In this document: positions 31,666 to 34,251 of the stretch, piece after piece
Layout: each line of letters starts with the position of its first letter
Position numbering within the stretch: the stretch's first letter is position 1
Made by a program: the position numbers and the translations under genes
The notes under the pieces: model-generated
Seen by the model: only the letters and a program-made list of their open reading frames with translations
What the model was told of the DNA's origin: nothing
Database searches by the model: none
Source: Thermoplasmataceae archaeon
GTDB taxonomy: Archaea > Thermoplasmatota > Thermoplasmata > Thermoplasmatales > Thermoplasmataceae
Assembly (NCBI GenBank): GCA_038729425.1
Contig: JAVYSB010000004.1
Span: 1 to 64,000, forward strand
Direction: 5' to 3'
DNA length: 64,000 bases

Positions 31666-31680
31666 TATATTTATATATAG
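31666..31680 (+). promoter_or_regulatory. Strong TATA box for the secreted-protein operon
   Basis: TATATTTATATATAG, an unusually good archaeal TATA element, ends 24 bases before ATG 31704. Transcription would begin only a few bases before the start codon. This fits an abundant surface protein. Confidence 0.6.
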
Positions 31681-31703: not shown

Positions 31704-32219
31704 ATGAACAGAAAAACTTTCCTGTTTTTTGCAATTGTAACTGCTGCGTTACTGCCGGCAACTGCGACTGCTGCGATCATCATTAATGATCCTATCCTAG
31801 TGTCAACACACCAGAATAATGCTGTCGTCTACATTGCCAATGGACCAGGATATGCACAGGCCCAAGCATATGGATTTATGTCAACTGATTACTCTGCTGC
31901 GGGGGAAAATGTAACAATTGATCTCAACTATACCCAGCACGGTGGTGTCAGCATAACAAACGCGCTTGAACTGGTCAATGGGGCTTCCTCCGCTGCCAGC
32001 GTTTATCTCAATGGTACACTGCCAGATTTCATAACGTGGTATTACTCAGCTTCCCCGGTTTCATCAGCTACAGCACCATACGGTACTCCGATTACTACGG
32101 GTACTCCGATTACTGTTAATGCCAATAGCCAGGTCTACATAACTGTGGTTATTAATACGCTTAACAGCCCGGGATACATCACCAGCGCCGATCTAACACT
32201 ACAATATACTCTATCGTGA
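31704..32219 (+). CDS. Secreted surface protein, candidate filament subunit (171 aa)
   Basis: A 171-aa protein with a classical signal peptide (basic MNRKT, hydrophobic FLFFAIVTAALLPA, Ala-rich cleavage region at about 23). The mature N-terminus reads IIINDPILVST. The remainder is beta-strand-rich, Asn/Ser/Thr/Tyr-rich and nearly free of charge and cysteine. There is no membrane anchor or sorting signal at the C-terminus, so it is released or assembled outside. The size and the strand-like free N-terminus resemble TasA-like or archaeal 'thread' subunits that polymerise by donor-strand exchange. That is inference. It leads an operon with a larger protein sharing the same N-terminal pattern. 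Confidence 0.75.
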   Translation: MNRKTFLFFAIVTAALLPATATAAIIINDPILVSTHQNNAVVYIANGPGYAQAQAYGFMSTDYSAAGENVTIDLNYTQHGGVSITNALELVNGASSAASVYLNGTLPDFITWYYSASPVSSATAPYGTPITTGTPITVNANSQVYITVVINTLNSPGYITSADLTLQYTLS

Positions 32220-32229
32220 GGACGCCAAT

Positions 32230-34251
32230 ATGGGGGGCCTACAACGGGTAATAGTATTTTCGATCGTTGTGGCATCCCTAGTTACAATTTCCGGTGTTGC
32301 CACTGCCAGTATACTTTTTAATAATCCAGTAGAGATTTCATCTTATAATAATCCTCCAGGTATGGAATTTTCCACCACTGGCTCTTCTCCTGGAGTGAAT
32401 TCTTTATTATCATCATCTTTAACTTCATTGAGTGCAAACGTGTCATTTAAAGGTTTTGCTACCAGTTCAAACCATTCAACTTCTGAGATTACGTTGAAAG
32501 AAGGGAACTACTCTTCGGATGTGAATATCCCAAACAACTACAGCACCTCTATTAACCCAATTTTCATAAACGCTTCTTCACAGGCTAATTTCTACGGGAT
32601 TTTATATCAGCCGCTTAATTTTACAAACTATAGCTTCTCAACATCCACAGTATTCCAACAGAAACCGTTCGCGACAGAAAGCGATCCTCACTCGTGGCAC
32701 TTCAGAATACGTTCTACGGTAAAAGAATTTACCCTATCTAATGGAGCATTTGTTAATACACTATCTTTGCTGCTATCTGGAAAGGGGGTCATATATGTTT
32801 CTATAGGTACTACTGTTCTGGGTGGTCAGGTCCTGGAGAAGGAAAGCGTTCATGTGAACGGTCTGAATTATTATACTGTAGCATTTCCAGATGCGTTTCT
32901 TGCAGGGAATACCCAATATTTCCTGAACCTTTATAATGTGTCTTCACACCATCTACTGAGGTCTTCGATTGAAAGTGGCGTGAGTTCCACGGGTTTGGGT
33001 AACCTCAGCGTGACTGCATCCTCGGAGAAATCCCAACAGGGATCACAGTTTGTCTCCGTGATAACTGGAGGAAACCATGGTAATCCACATGCCGTTTTTA
33101 CTGGCACTTTTACCATTGGATTTGATCCTAAAACGGGAGCGCTTCCGAGAGACGCTCTTTTTTTCTATGATTACGGCCTGAATAACGGTAGCATATGGTC
33201 TGTAACTCTTAATGGTACCACATATACGAGTCAGAACAGATTTATCCAGGTGGACGGGCTTAAGGGTTCCTTTACATATAAGGCGGGATCAGCCAGCGGG
33301 ATGCTCCCACTGATAGCTGACGGTACCATTGCAGTAAATACGTCTTCCTATCCCAAAATTGTTCCTGTGGTTTTCTATGACCCAGCAAAGACGCCTGTTG
33401 CCGGGATCAATTCGTCGATGGTGGCGTACGGTATTACCGGTGTCTCACAGAAATTCAATGTTGCAGATGGCGGCATAATCAATCACATTGCGGTAATGCT
33501 GAAGGGCACTGGTAGCGTAAACGTATCCCTTGGTTACACGCCGCACGGAAACCAGATAATGAAAAACGAGACGATCAAAACTTCAGGATCATCAGGAAAC
33601 TGGTATTCCCTTATGGTTCCTGACACCTTTTTCAGCGGCTCAGAAAATTATTACATCAGCGTATTTGGCATAATGGGTAACGTTGAATGGGCTTTTTCTC
33701 TGTTTCCATTTCCTCCATACGACCCTTCCTACCATGTTGCAAGTGGCTTCGCATCACCTTTTCTAGACTCGGGTTATATCTTTAACCTAAGTTACTCTCC
33801 TGGAATTTCCACCAGCGAAAATAGCAGTGTTTTCTTCATTGAGTACGGCCTTACCAGCGGGACAGCCTGGGGGGTGGGAATACTAGCCGGGGCCAATCTT
33901 GTTATTGGGTCACTGGTGTCTCTTAATGGTGGTTCCTGGATGTCAGTTGCGAGTCTTTATGCCGTATCCGGAATTAAAAACAATATGAGCCTGACATTTG
34001 ACCTTTCCAATGGTTCATCATTGGTGTCACAGTTCTCCTATAAAAATAACAATACTACCACTTCTGGAACGTATGTCACTCTTTCACCGGAAGGCAGACT
34101 GATAATGGCAATATCCATAGTGCCAGATGGTTACGGACATGGAGTGGAGTCTTTCGTTGTATACATATCGTCTACGTCCACTGGGTCTCATGTCAGGGTA
34201 ACTTATGCTGTCACAATCAATGTCGCATTCTCATTTTTTGGGAATATCTAG
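32230..34251 (+). CDS. Large secreted surface protein, partner of the upstream gene (673 aa)
   Basis: A 673-aa protein with a signal peptide (RVIVFSIVVASLVTISGVA) followed by ILFNNPVEISS. This resembles the mature start IIINDPILVS of the upstream protein. The body is beta-rich with many N-glycosylation sequons and two similar modules with matching segments (GKGVIYVSIGTTVLGGQ near 195 and GTGSVNVSLGYTPHGNQ near 430, each followed by WYSLMVPDTFFSG-like strands). There is no C-terminal membrane helix. The ribosome binding site GAGGA lies right after the upstream stop codon, so the pair is co-translated. It could be a tip, anchor or accessory subunit of an extracellular filament; this is inferred. 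Confidence 0.75.
   Translation: MGGLQRVIVFSIVVASLVTISGVATASILFNNPVEISSYNNPPGMEFSTTGSSPGVNSLLSSSLTSLSANVSFKGFATSSNHSTSEITLKEGNYSSDVNIPNNYSTSINPIFINASSQANFYGILYQPLNFTNYSFSTSTVFQQKPFATESDPHSWHFRIRSTVKEFTLSNGAFVNTLSLLLSGKGVIYVSIGTTVLGGQVLEKESVHVNGLNYYTVAFPDAFLAGNTQYFLNLYNVSSHHLLRSSIESGVSSTGLGNLSVTASSEKSQQGSQFVSVITGGNHGNPHAVFTGTFTIGFDPKTGALPRDALFFYDYGLNNGSIWSVTLNGTTYTSQNRFIQVDGLKGSFTYKAGSASGMLPLIADGTIAVNTSSYPKIVPVVFYDPAKTPVAGINSSMVAYGITGVSQKFNVADGGIINHIAVMLKGTGSVNVSLGYTPHGNQIMKNETIKTSGSSGNWYSLMVPDTFFSGSENYYISVFGIMGNVEWAFSLFPFPPYDPSYHVASGFASPFLDSGYIFNLSYSPGISTSENSSVFFIEYGLTSGTAWGVGILAGANLVIGSLVSLNGGSWMSVASLYAVSGIKNNMSLTFDLSNGSSLVSQFSYKNNNTTTSGTYVTLSPEGRLIMAISIVPDGYGHGVESFVVYISSTSTGSHVRVTYAVTINVAFSFFGNI

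Follow-up and report, generated by a model that had tools for sequence, protein, structure and literature searches.

Experiments in other archaea have established thread-like fibres built by donor-strand exchange, and TasA forms such fibres in Bacillus. In Sulfolobus acidocaldarius, the thread subunit Saci_0406 shares one operon with Saci_0405, a similarly folded but less expressed protein that was proposed to cap the filament, and relatives of this thread were reported only for Crenarchaea (PMC9715654). For the Thermoplasmatales, which have an unordered external protein shell instead of an S-layer, a 2025 cryo-EM study of their surfaces reported only type IV pili and archaella (PMC12448462). 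In the literature surveyed, the AbpA work aside, donor-strand fibres are undescribed for the Thermoplasmatales group, in which the genes considered below are common.

The DNA analyzed here is a stretch of 64,000 nucleotides from an acid-loving archaeon of the Thermoplasmataceae, referred to as the window, in which the original prediction had proposed, from gene layout, a two-gene operon for a TasA-like or archaeal-thread filament. We consider it probable that this operon codes for a surface filament of the archaeal thread/bundling-pilus type, secreted through Sec, in which subunits would exchange strands, based on the signal-peptide-like N-termini of the two proteins, the similarity of their first strands, the match of the modelled fold, the gene cassettes found in other genomes and the co-occurrence of their components. 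The two adjacent open reading frames at 31704-34251 are both real and lie where they had been placed (Table 1), on the forward strand and separated by 10 bp. They are flanked on one side by a 490-aa gene that we read as the alpha subunit of phenylalanyl-tRNA synthetase, and on the other side by a convergent arginine deiminase gene. The same gene pair with the same two neighbours was found in another genome (G044), with 64% identity for the subunit and 35% for the large protein, and the dN/dS of the pair against G044 was well below 1, with dS near saturation. In G046, which belongs to the same genus, a 151-aa subunit ORF stands alone with no large gene adjoining. The very strong TATA box that had been claimed for the operon was borne out in part: the element TTTATATA is present and the G044 orthologue has a TATA-like element at comparable spacing upstream, but its strength is less certain, since the octamer occurs in 5 copies in the window versus 3.1 expected and is thus not rare.

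Table 1. Features of the two-gene operon and the evidence for each (positions in the window)
Feature	Position	Strand	Basis
TATA-like element TTTATATA, putative operon promoter	31670..31677	+	Sequence; ~30 nt 5' of ATG
Proposed major subunit of the thread, secreted, 171 aa	31704..32219	+	ORF, family, fold; mature form without Lys, Arg, Cys
Sec/SPI-type signal peptide, 23 aa, ..ATATA↓AIII	31704..31772	+	Sequence and family alignment; putative cleavage site
Proposed donor strand AIIINDPILVS	31773..31805	+	Unpaired in monomer model; hydrophobic 2, 3, 4, 8, 10 conserved
Proposed acceptor domain: beta-sandwich head of mature residues 17-148	31821..32216	+	AlphaFold model, structure matches
GAGGA, overlaps the 3' end of the first gene; possible ribosome binding site for the second	32218..32222	+	Read from sequence
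Secreted 673-aa protein with modules; proposed thread cap/tip subunit	32230..34251	+	ORF, module and profile comparisons
N-terminal strand SILFNNPVEIS, pattern as in the 171-aa protein	32308..32340	+	BLOSUM62 comparison
Module A, residues 158-345	32701..33264	+	Homology with module B and with parts of large proteins from Thermoplasmatales
Module B, residues 400-583	33427..33978	+	Repeat of module A
C-terminal segment, residues 593-668, common to long second-gene proteins elsewhere	34006..34233	+	HMM E 3.7e-5, hhalign 94%

In both proteins, one strongly hydrophobic segment stands at the N-terminus and ends in AxA, with the best Kyte-Doolittle windows starting at residues 5-12, which agrees with the signal peptides assigned to them by the original prediction; judging from these sequences, both precursors would be exported by the Sec pathway and cleaved by signal peptidase I. 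The further claim that neither protein has a membrane anchor holds clearly for the 171-aa protein, in which no transmembrane-like stretch was found beyond the signal peptide (best Kyte-Doolittle value 0.9), but less clearly for the 673-aa protein, in which one borderline hydrophobic window occurs at residue 547 (1.73); read by eye, this stretch is less hydrophobic in the G044 homologue. The mature proteins had also been said to begin with similar strands, and the comparison of the two 11-residue stretches listed in Table 1 confirmed this with a BLOSUM62 score of 28, which ranked first among 637 positions in the large protein (the next best position scored 14) and first among 138 in the reverse comparison, while 0 of 22,635 other 11-mers in the window reached the same score.

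To describe the fold of the 171-aa protein, an AlphaFold2 monomer model was built on 8 rows, comprising the window sequence and sequences from related loci. The model was of medium confidence (pLDDT 74.5, pTM 0.73) and predicted a beta-sandwich with an unpaired N-terminal strand, the arrangement looked for in the strand part of the earlier structural test, with mature residues 1-16 left unpaired at a pLDDT below 50. The Foldseek search against the PDB ranked the Sulfolobus thread Saci_0406 first (7pnb; E 1.8e-3, probability 1.00), and in VIA-align the AbpA bundling pilus of Pyrobaculum (7ueg) and the thread 7pnb tied at the top with Z 8.0 over 134-135 residues and with the N-terminal strand aligned; the next chain had a Z of 6.8, and FimG, PapE, CsuA/B and the Natrinema pilus were lower. 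Because a Z of about 8 can reflect common arrangements, we placed the weight on the fact that both top matches are archaeal donor-strand filaments and that the strand is aligned. The closest solved structures are thus of the kind that had been proposed from layout. Sequence comparison was less telling: the family HMM searched against PDB sequences had its best match in 7pnb with an E of 0.037 that came largely from the signal-peptide junction, 7ueg was absent from this search at E <= 10, and the profile of the mature family against mature Saci_0406 was not significant (9 of 150 shuffles scored equally), with the N-termini aligned in register. On the fold and the precedents, the 171-aa subunit after cleavage would be a beta-sandwich head short of one strand, preceded by a hydrophobic N-terminal strand that is left free, and the strand of each subunit would complete the head of the next to give a head-to-tail linear thread.

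Similarity and profile searches placed the 171-aa protein in a family without annotation that is spread across the Thermoplasmata. The 171-aa query matched in 41 of 117 genomes of the order (E <= 0.1), and jackhmmer over the regions around those matches collected 76 members, with Thermoplasma species among the named loci (L103, L104). With a profile, members were detected in 50 of the 400 genomes sampled from the class, other families included, and outside the class in a single genome among those sampled from the phylum; the viral contigs searched held no relatives. Nothing useful was obtained from Pfam/NCBIfam for the family members, and single-sequence phmmer against the PDB gave no convincing match for either protein. 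A carnocyclin match in the phmmer search (E 0.13) was put down to chance, and a weak 'paralogue' at G000:C1:133230 was set aside as the KdpC region of a kdp operon, which contains a stop.

Related pairs had been proposed as something to seek in other Thermoplasmatales, and many genomes have them: directly downstream of the subunit gene, mostly no more than about 50 bp away, lies a second gene for a secreted protein with a similar N-terminal strand. In many genomes this cassette is completed by c2, a protein that spans the membrane several times and is about 230-290 aa long. Of the 25 genomes of the order in which c2 was found, 23 also carry the family (Fisher p 5e-14, uncorrected for kinship). 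In the window's own genome, c2 lies apart from the operon (G000:C1:101504-102352; L187:7364-8365), and the c2 genes of G044 and G045 likewise lie apart from the pair. At L090, L091 and L095-L097, c2 is located upstream of three tandem subunit genes, and in G073 (L090:10018-10809) a signal peptidase I-like gene, matching TIGR02228 at E 2.8e-4 and under the curated cut-off, directly precedes c2 and the subunit array. On this association, c2 is a candidate assembly or anchoring factor, one that may assemble the fibre or fix it to the cell. At L087, L090, L091 and L095-L097, three to five subunit paralogues stand in tandem and have mature proteins that start with Asp (AVA↓DVM); by analogy with Crenarchaeal threads, these Asp-starting arrays could possibly form isopeptide-linked threads.

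The composition of the subunit is unusual in that the mature 171-aa protein (148 residues) contains zero Lys, Arg and Cys, and the family has a median Lys+Arg of 1.3 per 100 residues in comparison to 11.2 in the ORFs of the window. For N-glycosylation sequons, no enrichment was observed in the mature subunit (3 versus 2.7 expected), while the large protein is enriched (21 versus 11.7, P 0.0015). A mature subunit free of Lys and Arg would not be seen by trypsin-based proteomics, and this tryptic blindness may explain why such fibres stayed unnoticed. Two secreted, beta-rich proteins, the smaller of them K/R-free, might also be non-polymerising parts of the unordered protein shell described for the Thermoplasmatales (PMC12448462), and many large proteins of the order do contain counterparts of the two modules, A and B, found in the 673-aa protein. 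We nevertheless regard such a role as unlikely, as it leaves unexplained the matching N-terminal strands, the presence of a strand that is conserved and hydrophobic yet unpaired, the joint top fold matches to two filaments, the tandem arrays and the linkage with c2.

With the filament taken as the preferred reading, the part played by the 673-aa protein has to be considered. Its description as a two-module protein was correct, the repeat of module A in module B being detected at E 4e-14, and the expectation that it lacks an enzymatic domain agrees with the searches of Pfam and NCBIfam, in which no domain was found for either window protein. The AlphaFold model of this protein, built on 3 rows, was unusable (pLDDT 37). 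A C-terminus profile trained on eight long or modular second-gene proteins, none of them from the window's genus, gave residues 593-668 of the 673-aa protein as the top independent match among 2,192 ORFs (E 3.7e-5, a duplicate of a training sequence aside); the G044 orthologue by itself was not matched by this profile, and three orthologues of the large protein taken jointly aligned with the long second-gene C-termini at an hhalign probability of 94%. The N-terminal part of the large protein with its signal peptide was linked to the short second-gene proteins and the subunits at an hhalign probability of 90%, which became weak (18-28%) without the signal peptide, and the C-termini of the short second-gene proteins (about 205 aa), used as a profile, showed no significant link to the large protein of the window. 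As far as these profile comparisons go, the long second-gene forms, the window's included, share a common C-terminus around different modules. Second-gene proteins of ~500 aa at L137:1237-2715, L139:801-2309 and L083:788-2278 contain blade-like stretches when read by eye, possibly an inserted beta-propeller. At L079:7297-7855 (G097) a shift of frame close to the start apparently interrupts the second gene, which is open in the Thermoplasma-group loci L080 and L101. In distant Thermoplasmata (family f15; L152:7806-8480, L153:6351-7025, L141:7153-7833), subunit-like genes are followed by a small secreted protein of 224-226 aa.

The N-terminal strand pattern is identical in kind in both proteins, and tandem arrays of similar subunits exist (L087, L090, L091, L095-L097), which would be in line with a donor-strand filament in which both proteins co-polymerise, alternating or mixed. 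We judge this improbable, since a second gene whose product varies from about 180 to 873 aa among relatives and diverges faster than the subunit (35% versus 64% identity, G044) is unlike a lattice component, and Saci_0405, its counterpart in the known pair, is a proposed cap (PMC9715654). By analogy with Saci_0405, the most likely role of the 673-aa protein is that of a cap or a tip adhesin, with its modules inserted between the N- and C-terminal parts, and not that of a co-polymerising subunit; the protein would donate its own N-terminal strand into a terminal subunit and would be present once per filament, carrying its two adhesin-like modules. Of the original prediction of a small and a large protein as a thread pair, the filament thus stands as the preferred reading, and for the large protein the role of a cap/tip adhesin fits better than that of a filament subunit. 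It is very improbable that the pair is only a self-contained secreted binding protein and a large adhesin whose N-termini resemble each other through signal-peptidase and secretion constraints, for although mature residues 1-10 are just moderately more conserved than the rest (1.69 versus 1.34, rank 37 of 130 windows, above average and not exceptional), an in-register match over 11 residues with hydrophobic positions 2, 4, 8 and 10 goes beyond the needs of a cleavage site.

A broader reading of the filament, which we offer tentatively as somewhat less likely than not, is that the Thermoplasmatota have a widespread, as yet undescribed donor-strand pilus that operates in the absence of an S-layer, with a near-Lys/Arg-free subunit, a cap that serves as scaffold for interchangeable adhesin modules, and c2 as a polytopic membrane protein dedicated to assembling or anchoring the fibre. 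If true, donor-strand fibres would also reach through a further archaeal phylum, and there into an order without S-layers in the members studied; its genomes would offer two things missing from the Sulfolobus system, a candidate membrane assembly factor (c2) and a set of cap/tip proteins that differ in their inserts. The gene is carried by species of the cultured genus Thermoplasma, and the idea is therefore directly testable.

In comparison with known systems, the window subunit differs from type IV pili and archaella in its SPI-type AxA junction (no class III signal peptide) and in its short strand-like mature N-terminus, for which no N-terminal helix was predicted. It resembles the chaperone-usher pili (FimG, PapE, CsuA/B) in an incomplete sandwich that would be completed by the strand of a partner, and several of these matched in VIA-align at Z 5.2-6.3; the structural scores are lower, however, and no usher or periplasmic chaperone was recognised in the neighbourhood. 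TasA/camelysin with SipW in Bacillus is similar as a donor-strand fibre of a Sec-secreted beta protein, and the sipW-tasA layout is resembled by G073 with its signal peptidase I-like gene, c2 and subunit array, but 36 family members gave no Peptidase_M73/camelysin Pfam match, and no signal peptidase gene was seen beside the window operon. The AbpA bundling pilus (Pyrobaculum, 7ueg) shares the fold with an N-terminal strand (Z 8.0, 134 residues), but at 12% identity.

The archaeal thread is similar in several respects: like Saci_0406, the window subunit has a Sec/SPI-type signal peptide and an N-terminal beta-strand followed by a beta-sandwich head, and like the Saci_0406/Saci_0405 pair it has an operon partner with a similar N-terminal strand; on the model, a donor-strand polymer would be expected. 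The differences are that the mature sequence has no significant similarity to Saci_0406, that the isopeptide-donor Asp is Ala in the window protein, with AIII in place of the YYY motif after the SPI site, and that the mature subunit carries only three sequons; a mature N-terminal Asp is found in 20 of 74 family members, mainly those of tandem arrays. The partner differs as well, being a protein of 673 aa with extra modules and a signal peptide, whereas Saci_0405 was reported without one. As the modelled fold is that of the thread, but significant mature homology and the Asp and YYY residues are lacking, we place the 171-aa protein outside the Saci_0406 family, as one that would work like a thread.
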